64,000 bases of DNA, from the NCBI GenBank assembly GCA_016195985.1, contig JACPYP010000004.1, positions 1-64,000 of the forward strand, read 5' to 3'. The notes under the pieces were generated by a model. The model was not told the origin of the DNA. It made no database searches and was given only the letters and a program-made list of their open reading frames with translations. Positions 53,019 to 61,748 of the stretch are shown here, in pieces. The first letter of the stretch is position 1. The number at the start of each line of letters is the position of its first letter. This stretch comes from Acidobacteriota bacterium (GTDB lineage: Bacteria; Acidobacteriota; Holophagae; Holophagales; Holophagaceae). A program made the position numbers and the translations under genes.

Positions 53019-53837
53019 ATGATGTCCCGTTCGATCCTCGATTACTTCGATGTGTCCTTAGACTTCTTCACGCAAGTTGTGCTGAACAACCCCAGCCTTA
53101 GGGGCATGATCTTGGGTTACATTGCCGAAGCGAAGCTGAAGGAAGCCTTGATGGGGCACGGGCGAGGTTCGGCATTCCGCAAGGATGATGACCACGACCG
53201 CAAGAAGAAGGGCGATCTTGTCGTTACTTACGAAGGGTTTGAGTTCAAGATTGAAGTCAAGTCCCTTCAAACCAACACGGTCGAAATGCTCCCCCCTGGA
53301 GGGGAATGGGTCCGGAAGGTCATCAAGCAGAAAGGACCGGGGCAGCCCAACCCGCCTTACCTCCCTTTGTGGGAAAAGCATCGGTTCGACGCCAAATTCC
53401 GGGGCCAGTTTCAGTGCGATGCGAGCGACAGGCGGAAGGTGAACTTCCCCGATGGGAGTTCGGTGGAGACGACTAACCTTCTCTTCGGCGAGTTTCACAT
53501 CCTGGCAGCCGGTATCTTCACTTTCCGAGAGAAGTGGGATTTTGGATTCGCCCTGAACCGTGACCTGCCCGCCAGTACCAATTCCGACTACACGGAGTAC
53601 CAACGGCAACGCCTGATTACCAGCATGATCCCCATTACTTGGCCTCTTCAGTCCCCGTTCGTCAGCGACATCTACGTCTTGCTTGACAAACTCGTCACTG
53701 AAGAGAAGGCGAAGAAAGAGGATAGGCTGGCCGGGAGAGAAACTGTGGTCGTCGAACAGCCGCCCGCGAAAACCTCGGATGTTGTCGAAGAACCGCAGGT
53801 CAAGGTTGTCGAAAGGAAACGGAAGAAGAAATCTTGA
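53019..53837 (+). CDS. type II restriction endonuclease, PD-(D/E)XK type
   Basis: 272 residues, no close named family recognised. The catalytic pattern is visible: E37 in [13 protein letters not shown]66 in [15 protein letters not shown] and E79-V-K81 in KIEVKSLQ, i.e. D-(X)12-ExK. The C-terminus is charged ([10 protein letters not shown]). The link to C and M genes supports restriction function; the recognition site cannot be read from sequence. Its 3' end overlaps the convergent methyltransferase by 38 bases. Confidence 0.8.
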
Positions 53838-54678
53838 ACTTCCGTTTCAGGAATACGACGAAGTACGAATGGTTCTTCCGGGCGTGTTCCTGCTTCTTCA
53901 ACCGGCTCACGCCCGCTTTGTTCGACCTAACGACGACGAATAGGTCTTTGGTGTAGAAACCTAGGGATTCGCAGCCGGTGATTATTTCGACGTGCGTAAG
54001 CCGCTGCCTGTTGGCGCTCACTTCATCCTGGCATTTCACGATGAACACGCCGTTCGGCTTCAAAACACGGTATGCGTCTCGGCTCGCTCGTGCGTACAGG
54101 TCTACAACGGCGTCGTGCCACTTTGGGGCGGTCTCTCCTTCCTTGATCGCTTCGCCCGACCCGTTTGCCTTCCCGTTGGAGTACGCCTTACGGAAGCTAG
54201 CGTGCGTGCCCGACCCGGCCATGTGGTCTTCGCTCTTCCTGAACAACCCTTCCATGTACGGCGGGTCCAGGACGAGACAATCAAGCGACTCGTCTTCGTA
54301 AGGCAGTTTCCGACAGTCCACGCCTGTCCGCACCTTGCCGGCCATGTGCGCCGGTATGCCTTCCGTCTTGGCGTCGATGTCCGATGCCAGGAGTCTGTAT
54401 GCGTCCGGCTCGACATCCCGCCAGAACGCCCCCTGCCCGTAGGTCACGTCAGCGACCGTCGCCCCCTTCGGAACGTGCAGGTCCAGAATTTGGGCGAACA
54501 GTTCGGAGTTATTACCGACGTGCACGGAGAACACTAGGTTCGTGGTCGGCTCACCCCCGGCGACCCGCTTTCCGATGCCGCCCGGTTGTTCCTGGTCATC
54601 GTCGAATAGCCCGTGTTGACTGTCGCGCATGATCACATTGTTTCCCGGTCGGGTACCCATTCGTCGTCCGTCCCACAT
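53800..54678 (-). CDS. DNA methyltransferase (DPPY, N6-adenine or N4-cytosine)
   Basis: 292 residues. Motif [15 protein letters not shown] (residues 73-86, DxxxGxGxF), SDID after it, motif [12 protein letters not shown] (DPPY at 138-141), and [17 protein letters not shown] later. The DPPY tetrad shows exocyclic-amino methylation; it protects host DNA from the linked nuclease. Possible starts are the ATGs at 54678 (GGTGAG upstream), 54660 and 54630. The first fits the promoter at 54707-54735. Confidence 0.88.
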
Positions 54679-55030: not shown

Positions 55031-55077
55031 TGTTGGTAGTCCCAAGGGGAATCGAACCCCTGTTCCCGCCGTGAGAG
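55031..55077. repeat. right attachment repeat within intact tRNA-Glu
   Basis: The second copy of the 47-bp repeat at 52197-52243. Here it is the 3' part of the complete tRNA gene, so the element supplied a replacement 3' end on insertion. The crossover lies between the anticodon loop and the CCA end. Confidence 0.9.
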
Positions 55078-55108
55078 GGCGGTGTACTAACCGCTATACG
55101 ATGGGACC
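55034..55108 (-). tRNA. tRNA-Glu (CTC)
   Basis: Minus strand: acceptor GGTCCCA pairs with TGGGACT (one G-U pair). The anticodon stem CCGCC/GGCGG encloses the loop CTCTCAC, anticodon CTC. T arm AGGGG-TTCGATT-CCCCT; CCA is encoded at 55034-55036. Insertion target of the island. Confidence 0.96.
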
Positions 55109-55137
55109 ACTGTGTTGCACTGCGGAAGAAGCTTGAG

Positions 55138-55212
55138 TGGTTGGGGAGGAAGGATTTGAACCCTCACCTGACGGTACCAGAAACCGTTGTCCTACCATTA
55201 GACCACTCCCCA
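55138..55212 (-). tRNA. tRNA-Gln (CTG)
   Basis: Minus strand: acceptor TGGGGAG pairs with CTCCCCA. The anticodon stem ACGGT/ACCGT encloses the loop TTCTGGT, anticodon CTG. CCA is encoded at 55138-55140. It lies 29 bases upstream of tRNA-Glu in the same direction. Confidence 0.95.
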
Positions 55213-55306: not shown

Positions 55307-55855
55307 ATGGCGGATCCCATCAAGTTGGCCTATTTCATGGCGGTCAAGGAGGGCGCGAGCTACCTGGGCGGCCTGTTGGTCACGGATACCTCGGGCATCC
55401 CCACGGACTTCCGCTACACGGAGCCCATCACGCCCACGCGTTTGCAGAGCATCCTCTACGGCAAGTCATTGGAGCCGCACCTCAAGGAAGAGGTGATCCA
55501 GAAGACCCTGCTGAAAGAGCTGAAGGCGCCGCCGGACCTGTTCATCCTCAGCGCCACGGAGCTGGCGGGGGGCTGGTCCGGGGACGCGAAATACCCGGTG
55601 CTGGCGGTGCAGAAGAGCCAGGAGGCGCCCCTGGGAAAGGTGGGCGAAGCCTTCCGCGCCGGCCCCCGGGAACTGCTGCTCCAACTGGCGGACGGCGCCG
55701 CGCCGTTGCGGGTGATCTTCGCCGCCTCGGTGGATGCGATGGCCCAGGAGCAGGCCGTGGTGAAGCTGCTGGAGGCGGGCTACCACATGGATTTGACGGA
55801 ACCTCTGGAACGGGTGACGGCGGCGCTGCAGAGCCTCGTGGTGAAGGAAGCCTGA
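55307..55855 (+). CDS. unknown protein, first gene of signalling operon
   Basis: 182 residues, no recognised family: MADPIKLAYFMAVKEGASYLGGLLVTDTSGIPTDFRYTEPITPTRLQSILYG, later LRVIFAASVDAMAQEQAVVKLLEAGYHMDLTEPLERV. Mixed alpha/beta, no signal peptide or membrane segment, so cytoplasmic. GAGGTG precedes the ATG at 55307. Its stop overlaps the next start by one base; five genes follow one another without real gaps. Confidence 0.75.
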   Translation: MADPIKLAYFMAVKEGASYLGGLLVTDTSGIPTDFRYTEPITPTRLQSILYGKSLEPHLKEEVIQKTLLKELKAPPDLFILSATELAGGWSGDAKYPVLAVQKSQEAPLGKVGEAFRAGPRELLLQLADGAAPLRVIFAASVDAMAQEQAVVKLLEAGYHMDLTEPLERVTAALQSLVVKEA

Positions 55856-56640
55856 TGTTCGGCAAAGTGAAGGACGCCATGGCGGATGCCGCGGAAACGC
55901 TGCGCCAGGCGTTCTCGGGCCTGAAGGTGGTGGAGGTGGAAGCGGAACCCTTCCAGCTCCGCAGCCAAACGTCCCAGGCTCTGGCGGCGGCGGGCCGCGC
56001 GGGGCTGGAGCCTCCGGCCGCGGCCTGCCGGGAGATGTGCCCGCTCCGGGAGGCGGTGGAGGGGCGCAGCCTGGAAGCTTTCGAGGCACGCTTGCAGGCG
56101 GAATCCGGCTGGGCCCGGTGGGGCGCCGAAGCGGAGGTGATCCGCATGATGCCGCTCGAAGGCGGCTCCGCCGCGCGGATGGCCGTGCCGCCCCTGCCCA
56201 GGCAGGCGCGGGTTCTGGGCCGGCTGGAGCCCCCTGTCCGGCCCGCTTCCCGCCGCTGGCTGGAGCCGGTCGCGCGGCCGAACCTCCGCCAGCTTTCGCC
56301 GGGGCTTGGGGCCGTGGGCACCCGCTTCGGCATGCAGGCCATGCTTTCCCTGGCCGTGCCCATCCGCGGCGAGGACATCCAGAGCCTGCCCAAGGGGCTG
56401 TGGATGCGCTACAGCCTGCAGCTGGTGCGGGGCACGGGGGAGAACGTGAGAAACCTCGAGGTTCTGGGGCTGTTCCGCGTGCCTCGTAAAGGGGTGGCGG
56501 ATCTGCGCCACGATCCGGCGAGGGGGCGGCTCTTGGTGAGGCTGGAGCCCTCGGCGCTCAAGGCGCCGCGCGCGGCGTTCATCCTGGCGCGCCGGAAGGA
56601 CGATGGAGGTCTGGTGAGTTGCTTTGTGGAGGATCCGTGA
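55855..56640 (+). CDS. unknown protein, second gene of signalling operon
   Basis: 261 residues, family not recognised. The start MFGKVKDAMADAAETLRQAFSGLKVVEVEAEPFQLRSQ is followed by an Arg/Pro-rich middle and a C-terminal part with beta strands (RYSLQLVRGTGENVRNLEVLGLFRVP, GRLLVRLEPSALKAPRAAFILARR). Cysteines in PPAAACREMCPLRE may pair or bind a metal. Translationally coupled on both sides (1- and 4-base overlaps). Confidence 0.7.
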   Translation: MFGKVKDAMADAAETLRQAFSGLKVVEVEAEPFQLRSQTSQALAAAGRAGLEPPAAACREMCPLREAVEGRSLEAFEARLQAESGWARWGAEAEVIRMMPLEGGSAARMAVPPLPRQARVLGRLEPPVRPASRRWLEPVARPNLRQLSPGLGAVGTRFGMQAMLSLAVPIRGEDIQSLPKGLWMRYSLQLVRGTGENVRNLEVLGLFRVPRKGVADLRHDPARGRLLVRLEPSALKAPRAAFILARRKDDGGLVSCFVEDP

Positions 56641-57617
56641 CCCGGAAGCCATCGGCTGACGCCAAGCCCGAGGGCGAAGCCCCGCTCAAGCCCAAGCTTG
56701 GGCCGAAGCCTGTGCCCATGGAGACCCTCCCCGGGTTTCCCGAGATGGCGACCGTGGTCCGTTCAAAAGCCGAAGGAGAACTCCAGCCGGCTCCTCCAGA
56801 GTGGGCGCTGGTGGCCTATGCCGGTGCGGCTCTGGGCCGGGTGTTCCCGCTGACGGGGGGAACCGTGATCATCGGTCGGGCCCCGGATGCGGGCGTGACG
56901 CTGCTGGATGGCGAAGTGAGCCGCCATCACGCGCGGATCAGGCTGGAGGAGGGCCAGGTCCAGGTGGAGGATCTGGGATCCACCAACGGCACCCGCGTGA
57001 ACGGGGAGGCGGTTCATGGCCCCCGGAGCTTGAAGGCCGGCGACCGGCTGTCCCTGGGCGGGCACGTGCTGAAGGTGGTCTGCCTCGATTCTCTGGAACG
57101 GGCCTTCCATGAAACCCTGTTGGACCTCAGCACCAAGGATCCCCTCACGGGCCTGGCCAACCGCGGCAGTTCCCTGGCCGAATTCCAGAACCGCTTCGGC
57201 CTGAGCCTCCGCTACGGGCGCCCCCTTTCCGTGGTGGTGTGCGACCTGGACCACTTTAAGCAGGTGAACGACACCTTCGGCCACGGGGCCGGGGACGTGG
57301 TGCTCCGCATCTTCGGGGAAAGGCTGCTGACCACGCTGCGCGAAGCGGATCTGGCCGGGCGCATCGGGGGCGAAGAGTTCCTCATGGTGTTGCCGGAGAC
57401 CGATCTCGCGGGGGCGCGGCCCTTCGCCGAGCGGTTGAGGAGGACCATCGCCAGCATGCCGATTTCCCTGGCCTCGGGACCCCTGAACATCACCTGCAGC
57501 CTCGGCATCGCCGAGCGCGCGGCTTCGGATCTGGAGGCTGGGCAGCTCCTGGCCCGGGCCGACGCGGCCCTGTACCGGGCCAAGGCCGGAGGGCGGAACC
57601 TGGTCTGCGAAGGGTAG
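56637..57617 (+). CDS. FHA-GGDEF diguanylate cyclase (first)
   Basis: 326 residues from the GTG at 56637 (GGAGG 4 bases upstream; overlaps the previous stop). Residues about 60-150 are an FHA domain (IIGRAPDAGVTLLDGEVSRHHARI, DLGSTNGTRVNG), which binds phosphothreonine. Residues about 165-325 are a GGDEF domain (DPLTGLANRGSSLAEFQ, DLDHFKQVNDTFGHGAGD, active site GGEEF). READ five residues before GGEEF is the RxxD product-inhibition site. Makes c-di-GMP from GTP. Confidence 0.92.
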   Translation: MTRKPSADAKPEGEAPLKPKLGPKPVPMETLPGFPEMATVVRSKAEGELQPAPPEWALVAYAGAALGRVFPLTGGTVIIGRAPDAGVTLLDGEVSRHHARIRLEEGQVQVEDLGSTNGTRVNGEAVHGPRSLKAGDRLSLGGHVLKVVCLDSLERAFHETLLDLSTKDPLTGLANRGSSLAEFQNRFGLSLRYGRPLSVVVCDLDHFKQVNDTFGHGAGDVVLRIFGERLLTTLREADLAGRIGGEEFLMVLPETDLAGARPFAERLRRTIASMPISLASGPLNITCSLGIAERAASDLEAGQLLARADAALYRAKAGGRNLVCEG

Positions 57618-57647
57618 GGAAGTCGTTTCTCCGCTAGACTTTCCAGG

Positions 57648-58580
57648 ATGCCCCTCGACCACACGCCTCCCGACCTTCCCGCGTGGAATCTGGCCGCTCC
57701 GCCGGAAGAGGTGGAGCTCCTCGAAGATCTGGATGCCCGCCAGTGGGCGCTGATCCGCTATGTGGGCCAGCCCATGGGGCAGTACATCCCCGTGCCCGCC
57801 GAAGGCCTGACGGTGGGGCGTTCGCCCGAGAACACGCTGTGCCTGCCCGAGCCCGAGGTGAGCCGCCGCCATGCGCGGCTGGAGATCTCCCCGACGCTGG
57901 ATTCCGTCGAGCTGAGGGACCTCCATTCCACCAACGGCCTCTTCGTGAACGGGCGCAAGGTGCTCGCGGATCCAGGGCCGTACAGGCTGCGCGCCGAGGA
58001 TGTGCTGCGGGTGGCGGGCCACGCCTTCAAGTTGAAGCGCATGGATGCCCTGGAGCGCCGGTACCACCTGGACATGGCCACCCGCACCACGCAGGATCCG
58101 CTGACGCGCGTGGGCAACCGCGCCACGGTGCTGCAGCAGCTGGAATCCCACGTGGGGCTGGCCGGCCGCCATCAGCGGCCCCTGTCGGTGATTCTGGCGG
58201 ATCTGGATCACTTCAAACAGGTCAACGATTCCCATGGCCACCGGGCCGGGGATCAAGCCCTGGAGGCCTTCGGGACCCTGCTCCAGCACCGGCTGCGAGG
58301 TTCGGATTCCGTGGGCCGGCTGGGCGGCGACGAATTCCTCATCCTTTTGCCCGAATCGCCGGCCTCGGCGGCCCTCGTGGCCGCCGAGGGCCTGCGCCAC
58401 GCCTTGGCGGGGCATGTGCTGACGCTGGAGAGCGGACAAAACCTCCGGCTCACTTGCAGCCTGGGCGTGGCAGAGCTCAGGCCGGGAGACAGCGGCGGCG
58501 GGGCTCTGCTGGCCCGGGCCGATGCCGCTCTCTACGGCGCCAAGGCGGGGGGCCGCGACCGCGCGCAAGCCGCGCCATGA
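57648..58580 (+). CDS. FHA-GGDEF diguanylate cyclase (second)
   Basis: 310 residues. FHA: LTVGRSPENTLCLPEPEVSRRHARLEI, DLHSTNGLFVNG. GGDEF: DPLTRVGNRATVLQQLE, DLDHFKQVNDSHGHRAGD, active site GGDEF, inhibition site RGSD five residues upstream. Same architecture as the preceding protein but clearly diverged, so an old duplication. Its stop overlaps the kinase start (ATGA). Confidence 0.92.
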   Translation: MPLDHTPPDLPAWNLAAPPEEVELLEDLDARQWALIRYVGQPMGQYIPVPAEGLTVGRSPENTLCLPEPEVSRRHARLEISPTLDSVELRDLHSTNGLFVNGRKVLADPGPYRLRAEDVLRVAGHAFKLKRMDALERRYHLDMATRTTQDPLTRVGNRATVLQQLESHVGLAGRHQRPLSVILADLDHFKQVNDSHGHRAGDQALEAFGTLLQHRLRGSDSVGRLGGDEFLILLPESPASAALVAAEGLRHALAGHVLTLESGQNLRLTCSLGVAELRPGDSGGGALLARADAALYGAKAGGRDRAQAAP

Positions 58581-59995
58581 GCGGCCTCCGGCCGCCCACC
58601 CAGATTGGCAGCGTGCGCCTGCTCGAACCTTTGGGCGAAGGCGGCATGGCCTTGGTCTTCCGGGGCGAGGACCGCTTCCGCCCAGGCATCCAGAGTGCCG
58701 TCAAACTGCTGCGTCCCGAAGTTCATCGCGATGCAGATCTGGTGCGCCGCTTCCTCCGCGAAGGCGAGGTGCTCAGGCGCCTTTCCCACCCGAGCCTGGT
58801 GGAGATCCATGCCTTCGGCACCAGCGGCGTCTGGCCCTACCTGATCATGGAACTGCTGCCCGGCGGCAGCCTGAAAGACTGCCGGGGAGAAGCCCCCGCG
58901 GCCCTGGTGCGCCGCCTCGTGCCCGTGTGCGAGGCGCTCGCCGAGGCCCACGCCGCTGGCGTGGTGCACCGGGATCTCAAGCCTTCCAACATGCTTTTCG
59001 CGGAGGATGGCCGCCTCAAGGTGACGGACTTCGGCGTCTGTTTCTGGGAAGGGGAGGAGGGACGCACCCGCGCCACCCGCAGCCAGATGGTGGTGGGCAC
59101 CCTGGGCTACATGGCCCCGGAGCAGCACGGCGATCCCCGCAGGGTCGACGGCCGCTGCGATGTCTACGCCCTGGGCGCGATCCTCTTCGAGTTCGCCACG
59201 GGGCAGGCCTACGCCCAGGTGCAGCTACCCCCCGCCGCCGTCCGGCCGGGCTTTCCGCCACGCCTGGCGGGCATCATCATGCGCGCGCTGCAGCCCGATC
59301 CCGCCAAACGGCTGGCGGGCATGGATCTTTTTGGACAAGAACTGTCCACTTGGCTGGAGAGCGCCGAATCCGTGGGATGGGGCGAGGAGCCCCTGCCGGG
59401 TTTCGCCGCCCGGGACCGGGAGCAGGCCACGATGGCCGGCCCGCGGCGCGAAGAAGGGACCAGCGGCCGCCTCGCGCCTTACCTGGATGCCTTGGGCACA
59501 GGGCCCGTGGGGGCCCGCCGGGCTGCGGCCGAAGGGTTGGTTTCCGCCGCGCGCCCTGGCGACGGCCCTTGGCTGGAGGAAGCCTTGGCGAGGGCGCCGG
59601 AGGGGGCCCGCTTCGCCTTGGCCCGGGCCCTGGGCAAGGTGGGAGGAGCCGAATCCCTGCGGCCTCTGTTGGCGCTGCTGTCTGATCCCTTCGCCCAGCG
59701 CGAAGCCGCGGAGGCGGCGGCGGACGTGGCCCTGCGCACCGGCCAGCTGGAATCCGCCCGGGCAGCCCTTGCGGAGCCGGGCCTGGGCGCCCCTTGGCGC
59801 TGGACGGCTCGGGCGGCCCTGGGGGATGAAGCCTGGGTGCTGGCCCTGGCGGTGGAGTGGCGGCGGCTCACGCCGCCCTTCCGCCTGCAGGTTCTGGAAG
59901 CCTGCCGCAGCCTGCCCGAGGCCCTGCGGATCCGCGCCAAGAAGGTCACGGCCGACGCCAGCGGCCAGGCGCGCGCGGCCTGGGAACAGCTCTAA
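58577..59995 (+). CDS. soluble Ser/Thr protein kinase with C-terminal helical repeats
   Basis: 472 residues. Kinase domain 10 to about 265: PLGEGGMALVFRGED, Lys in SAVKLLRP, HRDLKPSN, TDFGVCFW, GTLGYMAPEQHG. Unlike the kinase at 44777 it has no membrane helix. The C-terminal 180 residues (GPVGARRAAAEGLVSAA, RFALARALGKVGGAESLRPLLALLSDPFAQREAAEAAADVAL) look like HEAT-type repeats, a protein-interaction surface. Coupled to two FHA-GGDEF genes, whose FHA domains probably read phosphothreonines it makes. Confidence 0.9.
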   Translation: MSGLRPPTQIGSVRLLEPLGEGGMALVFRGEDRFRPGIQSAVKLLRPEVHRDADLVRRFLREGEVLRRLSHPSLVEIHAFGTSGVWPYLIMELLPGGSLKDCRGEAPAALVRRLVPVCEALAEAHAAGVVHRDLKPSNMLFAEDGRLKVTDFGVCFWEGEEGRTRATRSQMVVGTLGYMAPEQHGDPRRVDGRCDVYALGAILFEFATGQAYAQVQLPPAAVRPGFPPRLAGIIMRALQPDPAKRLAGMDLFGQELSTWLESAESVGWGEEPLPGFAARDREQATMAGPRREEGTSGRLAPYLDALGTGPVGARRAAAEGLVSAARPGDGPWLEEALARAPEGARFALARALGKVGGAESLRPLLALLSDPFAQREAAEAAADVALRTGQLESARAALAEPGLGAPWRWTARAALGDEAWVLALAVEWRRLTPPFRLQVLEACRSLPEALRIRAKKVTADASGQARAAWEQL

Positions 59996-60114: not shown

Positions 60115-60696
60115 TCAGTGGCGCCACCAGAGCCAGTAGGCGAGCGGCACGGCGGCTCCCAGGCCCGTCAGCCAGAGGCCTCGGCCGAAGAATCCCTTCG
60201 GTCCCCGGAGGATGAACAGCCCCGAAAGAGCCAGAAGGATGAGGGCCCCGGCGTAGAGATCGGCCACCAGCGTCCAATGCCGCTTGGGAGCGTTCAAGTG
60301 CAGCTGGTTCAGGGCGAAGAGCACCGGCCTTGGCCGGGTGGCTTCCACCAGCACCTTGCCCGTGGGCAGGTCCACGGCGTAGGTGGCGCGGTCGTAGAAC
60401 AGCTGCAGGGTGTCGTCATCGGGCTGGAAGGCGCTCTTGAACCCCCCTTCGGGCCGGAGGCCTTCCTGGGCGCGTTGGATCAGCGTTTCGACGGGCTGTT
60501 TGGGATCCAAGGGGGCGAGCTGGAGGACTTCGGTGGTCTTGGCGTAGTTCGGGTTCCAGCTGGCCACGTGGTTCACGGCCAGCCCGGAGATGGCGTAGAT
60601 CAGCGTGAGGGCCGCCGCGAGGTAGCCCACGTCGCGGTGGATGGCGGCATTCCAACGCCGCCAGGGCAGGGCCCTGCGTTCTGGACTGGAGGCCAT
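60115..60696 (-). CDS. PepSY-associated membrane protein
   Basis: 193 residues: RRWNAAIHRDVGYLAAALTLIYAISGLAVNHVASWNP is the N-terminal PepSY-TM helix with conserved His. A periplasmic PepSY-like part follows (LFYDRATYAVDLPTGKVLVEATRPRPVLFALNQLHLNAPKRHWTLVADLYAGALILLALSGLFIL), then a final helix. Such proteins are linked to iron or metal reduction and uptake. It starts 7 bases after the DUF4920 stop, forming a two-gene operon. Confidence 0.8.
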   Translation of the reverse strand: MASSPERRALPWRRWNAAIHRDVGYLAAALTLIYAISGLAVNHVASWNPNYAKTTEVLQLAPLDPKQPVETLIQRAQEGLRPEGGFKSAFQPDDDTLQLFYDRATYAVDLPTGKVLVEATRPRPVLFALNQLHLNAPKRHWTLVADLYAGALILLALSGLFILRGPKGFFGRGLWLTGLGAAVPLAYWLWWRH

Positions 60697-60703
60697 GGCA
60701 GCG

Positions 60704-61159
60704 CTACTGGATCTCGGCGCCGAGGCCTTCGATCCGGATGATGGTCTTGGGGCCGGCGACCTTGCTGTAGTCGGCCTGCTTGTTGAGGGCCTTGGCCTCC
60801 TTGTCGCACATGGCCTTCTGCTGCTCGACGCTGAGCACCCGCTTGGAGACGGTGCCCTCAGCCACCACGGAGCTGCCCTTGGCGCTCATGGGGAAGGTCA
60901 TGACGCCGTCCTCCACCTTGAACTGGATCTCCTGCTTGTCGGCGCCAATCTTGATCCAGCATCCGCGCTCCTCACAAACGCCGGTGACCAGGCCCTTCAC
61001 GCGGACCTTCTTCCCGGCGTACTGATCGGGGTGGGCGAGGATCTCTGAAACCTTCACCTCCTCCTTGAGGCTGAGGGGCTGCCCATAGCGTTTGGGCTCG
61101 GAGGCCTGGACGCAGAGCGGGGTCAGAACCAGCAACGTGAGGAGGGACCGCAGTCTCAT
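60704..61159 (-). CDS. secreted DUF4920 protein
   Basis: 151 residues with a signal peptide (MRLRSLLTLLVLTPLCVQASE). The core SEILAHPDQYAGKKVRVKGLVTGVCEERGCWIKIG is an OB-like strand set with two Cys (CEERGC) typical of DUF4920, and KVEDGVMTFPMSAKGSSVVAEGTV follows. Function unknown; the CxxxxC pair may bind metal or form a disulfide. AGGAG lies 5 bases before the ATG. Confidence 0.8.
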   Translation of the reverse strand: MRLRSLLTLLVLTPLCVQASEPKRYGQPLSLKEEVKVSEILAHPDQYAGKKVRVKGLVTGVCEERGCWIKIGADKQEIQFKVEDGVMTFPMSAKGSSVVAEGTVSKRVLSVEQQKAMCDKEAKALNKQADYSKVAGPKTIIRIEGLGAEIQ

Positions 61160-61280
61160 GAAGGCTCCTGGGAGTGATCCTCATGATAACCCCTTCATCG
61201 TGAATGATGCAGGCCCGGAAGGCGTGCCTGGGATCTCCGGCTCCGGCTACCATCATCGGCACTTGCCCCGAGGTGGATGG

Positions 61281-61748
61281 ATGGTCCCGCTCTTGCTGCT
61301 CATGGCCTTCGGCATCGGATTGATCATTCCCCTGCAGTCGGCGGTGAACAGCTCTCTGCGGGACGCCCTGGGCAGCGGCTCCCTGCTGGCGGCGCTGATT
61401 TCCTTCGGCGTGGGGACGGTCTTCCTGGCGGGTTTCAGCCTCGCCACGGGACAGCCCTTCGCCTCGCTGGCAGGCCTGCCGCGCATCGCCTGGTGGCAGT
61501 GGCTGGGAGGCGTGATGGGCGCCTTCTTTGTGTTCGGATCCACCTTTCTGGCGCCCCGCATCGGCTTGGCGGCCATGATTTCCCTCATCATCGCGGGGCA
61601 GGTGGTGTCTTCCCTGGCCTTCGACCGCTTCGGCCTGCTGGGCCTGCCCGTGCGCGAGATCTCCTGGGTGCGCCTGCTGGGAGCCCTGCTGCTGCTGGCG
61701 GGGGCCACCCTGGTCAACTTCGGCGACCGGTGGCTGGCGAGGGGCTGA
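61281..61748 (+). CDS. YdcZ-like (DMT family) membrane protein
   Basis: 155 residues with about five membrane helices: MVPLLLLMAFGIGLIIPLQSAVNSSLRDALGSGSLLAALISFGVGTVFLAG, WWQWLGGVMGAFFVFGSTFLAPRIGLAAMISLIIAGQ, and DRFGLLGLPVREISWVRLLGALLLLAGATLV. This is the half-size DMT/YdcZ pattern; these usually work as dimers. Start at 61281 has GAGGTGG upstream; an ATG at 61158 is in frame but would add a non-conserved 41-residue segment. Confidence 0.8.
   Translation: MVPLLLLMAFGIGLIIPLQSAVNSSLRDALGSGSLLAALISFGVGTVFLAGFSLATGQPFASLAGLPRIAWWQWLGGVMGAFFVFGSTFLAPRIGLAAMISLIIAGQVVSSLAFDRFGLLGLPVREISWVRLLGALLLLAGATLVNFGDRWLARG

Follow-up and report, generated by a model that had tools for sequence, protein, structure and literature searches.

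A putative flagellum-linked signalling operon of Holophagae led by a protein with a predicted Endonuclease V-like fold

The stretch analyzed here comprises positions 1 to 64,000 of contig JACPYP010000004.1 (assembly GCA_016195985.1), from a member of the family Holophagaceae (Acidobacteriota), and its full length of 64,000 nucleotides is referred to as the window. At 55307-59995 it carries five plus-strand genes, g1 to g5, encoding an acidic protein, a strongly basic protein, two FHA-GGDEF proteins and a Ser/Thr kinase (Table 1). The original prediction described these genes as overlapping or nearly overlapping, and all five open reading frames (ORFs) are indeed present. It also called for a check of the gene order in other genomes: the g1-g2-g3-g4-g5 order is kept across the Geothrix-like Holophagaceae, and the same order in relatives indicates that the operon arrangement is not due to chance. 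We found that g1 occurs almost only in flagellated bacteria.

Table 1 Features of the g1-g5 locus in the window
Feature	Position	Strand	Length (amino acids)	Description
tRNA-Glu and tRNA-Gln genes	55034..55212	-		Opposite strand to the operon; upstream edge of the locus
g1	55307..55855	+	182	Acidic; predicted RNase H-like fold; flagellum-linked family of Holophagae and Synergistota
g2	55855..56640	+	261	Very basic; TGATG 1-base overlap with g1
g2 C-terminal domain	56320-56625	+		Predicted alpha + 5 beta (helix plus five strands)
g3	56637..57617	+	326 from GTG start	FHA-GGDEF diguanylate cyclase 1; 4-base GTGA overlap with g2
T39 codon of g3	56751..56753	+		N-terminal tail; candidate phospho-acceptor for the g3 FHA domain
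g3 FHA domain	56865-57059	+		Pfam, 66.3 bits
g3 GGDEF domain	57135-57599	+		Pfam, 140.7 bits; inhibitory site (I-site) READ
g4	57648..58580	+	310	FHA-GGDEF diguanylate cyclase 2; 30-base gap after g3
g4 FHA domain	57810-58013	+		Pfam, 63.6 bits
g4 GGDEF domain	58089-58562	+		Pfam, 132.3 bits; I-site RGSD
g5	58577..59995	+	472	Hanks-type Ser/Thr kinase; 4-base ATGA overlap with g4
g5 kinase domain	58622-59215	+		Pfam match
g5 C-terminal part	59507-59716	+		Pfam, weak HEAT-like

The most conserved part of the operon is g1, which shows 84-96% identity in 24 relatives within the genus; the corresponding range for g2 is 54-88%. In Acanthopleuribacter, Sulfidibacter and their kin, the operon consists of g1, a g2-type gene (g2') and a kinase gene, with no FHA-GGDEF genes in the operon, and, of the numerous kinases that each of these genomes encodes, this one matches g5 best. 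The g2 and g2' proteins (Holophagaceae and Acanthopleuribacteraceae, respectively) are homologous, as assessed by a column-shuffle test (0/200 in both directions, with matching coordinates). The conserved core is g1, g2 and the kinase, without the cyclases. A termite-gut Holophagaceae genome with FlhA (locus L173:6001-8083) carries g1, an unknown protein of 229 amino acids (a.a.) and g2, with neither kinase nor cyclase genes adjoining g1 or g2. Since g1 and g2 occur without cyclases in the Acanthopleuribacter group, and without kinase or cyclases in the termite-gut genome, the cyclases probably joined later, and g1-g2 are probably the most ancient part. The two leading proteins had been described as matching no recognized family and as possible sensors or targets, and g1 and g2 indeed have no family in either Pfam or NCBIfam; rather than add-ons, they appear to be the oldest part of the operon. 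The flagellar link of g1, described below with its predicted Endonuclease V/PIWI-type fold, had gone unseen. Holophagaceae-type operons were also found in two records labelled Bacillota and Deltaproteobacteria (L166:600-1133 and L169:6001-6534), which cluster with Holophagaceae in the g3 tree and are probably misnamed assemblies.

To relate g1 to flagella, the 60 genomes examined for g1 were also searched for FlhA, and the counts for the class Holophagae were made on the 37 genomes that are at least 90% complete; none of the co-occurrence counts was corrected for phylogeny. Within the class, 22 genomes had both g1 and FlhA, 15 had neither, and none (0) was discordant. Flagellin showed the same presence pattern as FlhA and was also detected in G027 (71% complete), the sole g1-bearing genome without an FlhA match. 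Every flagellated member of the class without g1 is represented by an incomplete genome: in G010 and G021 the contig ends next to the operon, and completeness is 72% for G011 and 88% for G024. FlhA was present in 14/14 g1-bearing genomes tested. In 147 Synergistota genomes, both were found in 90, neither in 44, g1 only in 3 and FlhA only in 10 (Fisher p 4e-24, a value that ignores kinship), and in 46 Synergistota genomes the two genes lie on one contig, 9-11.4 kb apart. Both Acanthopleuribacter pedis and Sulfidibacter corallicola have been reported to bear flagella, and Geothrix fermentans to be non-motile (PMC8841776). The gene g1 is present in records of Geothrix limicola and S. corallicola. 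The flagella-less Geothrix clade is monophyletic (6 of its 7 genomes are in the tree, on one side of a branch with support 100/99). It is missing g1, g2, g4 and g5 and has kept only g3, which at the loci read is flanked by neighbours resembling those of the window. Taken together, a link between g1 and flagella is very probable.

A scan of genome contigs located g1 in many Synergistota, where it is typically preceded, in this order, by cheA, cheC, cheD, a flagellar-type sigma factor, FapA (DUF342) and a ~104-a.a. protein, and followed by a basic ~200-a.a. protein, an S1-domain protein and DUF501. The g1 gene lies within a flagellar/chemotaxis (fla/che) operon in many Synergistota and in a separate operon in Holophagae. 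The basic protein is encoded directly 3' of g1 in nearly all Synergistota loci. Literature searches on the fla/che operons of Synergistota and on the neighbours of FapA turned up no description of g1. A small charged protein of ~100 a.a. encoded between FapA and g1 (L201:5640-5957), common in Synergistota fla/che operons, has no convincing family. In a gut Synergistales genome (L183:6001-8397), the g1-g2-S1-DUF501 block adjoins histidine-biosynthesis genes, not the fla/che operon, and FlhA is still present.

The AlphaFold2 model of g1, based on 48 sequences, has a mean predicted local distance difference test score (pLDDT) of 90.6 and a predicted template modelling score (pTM) of 0.87. Foldseek with this model placed Endonuclease V chains on top (E 1.5e-7) and PIWI/Argonaute chains next, and VIA-align aligned 171 of 182 residues with Endonuclease V 3ga2 (Z 13.0) and gave Z 12.6 with PIWI 1ytu. 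The profile-profile alignment with Endonuclease V is weak (P 0.013) but runs collinearly through most of the protein, the C-terminal EP..R segment included; its score was matched by 0/300 and 2/300 column shuffles. With high confidence, then, the modelled fold of g1 is RNase H-like, with Endonuclease V and PIWI as its nearest relatives. The metal ligands of the T. maritima Endonuclease V are D43 and D110 (PMC4650699). In g1, strand 1 (residues 7-12) has an acidic residue in 0/48 sequences, and strand 4 never has one at residues 78-81 and has one in 6% of the 48 sequences at residue 82. A survey of the RNase H-like superfamily noted that members without catalytic residues are often inactive (PMC3985635), and we consider it likely that the nuclease activity of g1 has been lost.

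Two classifications of g1 were rejected. It was not filed as Endonuclease V because, despite the predicted fold, the strand 1 and strand 4 metal-binding aspartates corresponding to D43 and D110 are missing. In addition, PF04493 did not match g1 even at E up to 1, and had zero matches anywhere in the window's genome. As an Argonaute/PIWI protein, g1 matches in fold but has only 182 a.a. and no further domain, besides the missing strand aspartates. A search of PDB sequences with the g1 profile returned only repeat-protein matches and a weak glycoside hydrolase match, judged to be noise, and g1 was absent from the plasmids searched.

The median isoelectric point (pI) of g1 is 5.0, and g2, which adjoins or lies near g1 in relatives, is strongly basic: the Holophagaceae g2 family has a pI of ~10.6, and the medians of the g2-type proteins in the three groups are 10.6, 9.8 and 11.2 (full range 9.1-11.7). 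The g2 model (mean pLDDT 62.7) contains a less confident N-terminal helix, a disordered or unresolved middle and a confident C-terminal domain, and a structure search gave no meaningful fold match (the highest VIA Z was 2.7). Alignment of the g2 groups by hhalign from small alignments was not significant, and a shuffle test was used instead, in which 1-3 of 200 shuffles reached the observed mean for the comparisons of Holophagae g2 with the Synergistota basic protein. Together with gene position and pI, this is suggestive of homology between the two.

The FHA and GGDEF matches of both cyclases are far above the Pfam cut-off, and NCBIfam agrees. The GGEEF/GGDEF active site, the RxxD I-site and the FHA SRxH motif are kept in 47/47 rows of the g3 alignment, a few of which are repeats of the same genome. 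The g4 orthologues have GG[DE]EF in 36/38 rows and also keep the I-site and SRxH motifs, so the claim that both enzymes retain their active-site and inhibitory residues stands. In g3, T39 is identical in 47/47 aligned rows, within a tail (residues 1-52) that is otherwise poorly conserved (the next best column is R42, at 0.89). In the FHA-GGDEF protein DgcB of Bdellovibrio bacteriovorus, the tail residue Thr14 docks on the FHA domain; the kinase was not known at publication, and a Sorangium kinase-tail-FHA-GGDEF fusion was mentioned (PMC6733907). By analogy with DgcB, gating of g3 by a phospho-tail seems reasonably probable. A conserved phospho-tail in g4 was considered and rejected, as its best tail Thr occurs in 24/40 rows. 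The original idea of cyclic di-GMP (c-di-GMP) synthesis gated by Thr phosphorylation is accordingly plausible for g3, with its invariant tail Thr as in DgcB; g4 has no such invariant residue.

The kinase domain of g5 matches the Pfam protein kinase family at 2.2e-33, and its catalytic lysine, HRDLKPSN and DFG/DYG motifs are kept in 43/43 orthologues. The gene had been described as a kinase with HEAT-like repeats; the Ser/Thr kinase is intact, but the HEAT match falls below the curated cut-off (23.7 vs 27.7 bits). Its proposed role as the writer for the cyclases is supported by its intact motifs and the shared operon, but the kinase is kept with g1-g2 in operons without cyclases, and g3 survives without the kinase. 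Because g3, including T39, survives in the clade that lacks g5, g5 is not tied to cyclase 1. Based on the shared operon, and weakened by this survival, the assignment of g5 as the kinase for the g3 tail stands at slightly less than an even chance.

Starting from what was computed directly, namely gene order, domains, intact enzyme motifs, the predicted fold, the lack of the strand aspartates and, in two phyla, the joint occurrence of g1 and flagella, we propose the following mechanism. The core would be a two-protein module of g1, with its acidic and presumably dead Endonuclease V/PIWI-type fold, and the strongly basic g2; g5 would have joined it in the class Holophagae, and g3 and g4 would have been added in Holophagaceae only. 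Because of their opposite charge and constant pairing, g1 is expected to bind g2, and the pair may either signal the state of the flagellar/chemotaxis machinery or act upon it. The kinase g5 would phosphorylate a Thr of a partner, probably T39 in the g3 tail, and the phospho-tail would dock on the g3 FHA domain to switch on c-di-GMP synthesis, as proposed for DgcB; c-di-GMP might in turn tune swimming versus attachment. Overall, we lean slightly toward this flagellum-linked signalling operon built around g1, with the proposed mechanism in full. As a tentative extension, which we hold with somewhat less than even confidence, g1-g2 may be an accessory or control factor of the flagellum of a new type, made from a catalytically dead Endonuclease V/PIWI fold and a basic partner, that in Holophagae would connect the flagellum with Ser/Thr phosphorylation and, via FHA-GGDEF proteins, with c-di-GMP.

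Several points weigh against this interpretation. The genomes are related, so that the p-values overstate the association, and the independent joint losses or absences in Holophagae may number only ~3. Flagella as such do not require g1, which is missing from three flagellated Acidobacteriota outside the class and from the 10 FlhA-bearing Synergistota mentioned above. In the window's own genome, the operon and the FlhA gene are on different contigs and do not adjoin. The persistence of g3 without g5 implies that another kinase serves g3 there or that the tail is unphosphorylated, g4 has no invariant tail Thr, and the homology of the Synergistota basic protein with g2 falls short of firm. The relatedness of the genomes, the flagellated relatives without g1 and the separation of the operon from FlhA would also suit an explanation in which g1-g2 do another job useful to motile cells, the co-occurrence reflecting lifestyle or shared ancestry; we judge this rather improbable, as many Synergistota have g1 within the fla/che operon itself, and its presence and absence parallel those of flagella in both phyla as well as inside a single genus.

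The circuit originally envisaged, in which the kinase writes and the FHA-GGDEF enzymes read in a self-contained phospho-c-di-GMP pathway that has no particular connection to flagella and to which g1 and g2 contribute only incidentally, as sensors or targets, would account for the intact kinase, the two FHA-GGDEF enzymes, the invariant tail Thr of g3 and the overlapping genes. It fits poorly with the kinase remaining beside g1-g2 in operons without cyclases, and with g1 and the kinase being missing where flagella are missing while g3 stays. As a complete account we find it unlikely; its mechanism is plausible but incomplete, and the leading gene pair is the more interesting part. Of similarly low probability is the idea that g1-g2 bind RNA or DNA and regulate flagellar transcripts or DNA under modulation by the kinase and cyclases. 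The nucleic-acid-handling type of the g1 fold, the high pI of g2 throughout the three groups and the S1-domain RNA-binding gene downstream in Synergistota agree with such a role, but g1 itself is acidic, a fold alone is no proof of binding, and the S1 gene is not part of the Holophagae operon. The combination of a kinase with a PIWI/Endonuclease V-fold protein also recalls anti-phage defence of the short-Argonaute or kinase-based type; the PIWI proteins that g1 resembles in fold include those of short-Argonaute systems, and PADLOC matched the kinase to PD-T4-6 and mad6. These matches of g5, however, belong to many generic kinase models and g1 matches none, g1 has neither a MID domain nor the catalytic residues, and the single conserved locus, with its high g1 identity across the genus, is unlike a defence gene and co-occurs with flagella; this explanation is very improbable. 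The flagellum-linked reading remains our preferred one. The g1 family, unannotated and without a Pfam or NCBIfam model, has an unexpected predicted fold and is strongly associated with flagella in both phyla, and this association points to an undescribed device for the control of swimming. The kinase, which is the missing piece of DgcB-type regulation, may adjoin the cyclase in the same operon.

The 53019-54678 region encodes, on the plus strand, a 272-a.a. protein that matches no Pfam family and contains the D..ExK-like segment FKIEVKSLQ; its gene overlaps a minus-strand N4/N6 DNA methylase gene (PF01555) tail to tail. The two form a candidate restriction-modification pair in a stretch of lower GC content (0.589) beside the two tRNA genes. 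Downstream of the operon, minus-strand genes in the 60115-61748 region encode a PepSY-TM-like protein (PF16357) and a DUF4920/CcmE-like protein, and a plus-strand membrane transporter-like ORF at 61092-61748 has a C-terminus resembling the ORF adjoining g3 in the flagella-less clade.

Compared with known systems, g1 resembles Endonuclease V (PF04493) in having an RNase H-like fold predicted along its entire length and in the weak collinear profile match, but differs in its size of ~180 a.a., in lacking the strand 1 and strand 4 metal-binding aspartates and in the adjoining gene for a basic partner. The PIWI domain of Argonautes shares the same predicted fold, with the whole of g1 aligned at Z up to 12.6, whereas g1 lacks the MID domain and the strand aspartates. 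The kinase domain of g5 has all of the key motifs of Hanks-type (PknB-like) Ser/Thr kinases, but g5 has no PASTA match in Pfam and instead has a weak HEAT-like C-terminal part. Both g3 and g4 have the domain order of DgcB and its RxxD I-site, and g3 has an invariant tail Thr N-terminal to the SRxH FHA domain. In contrast to DgcB, the tail motif of g3 is ~E-M-x-T-x-V-R rather than L-E-K-T-S-I-V, a kinase is encoded in the same operon, and activation by the phospho-tail is only predicted here. Finally, as in the fla/che operons (cheA-cheC-cheD-sigma-FapA) of many Synergistota, which have g1 and a g2-like gene at the operon end, g1 and g2 stand together in Holophagae, but in a separate operon with the kinase (and the cyclases).

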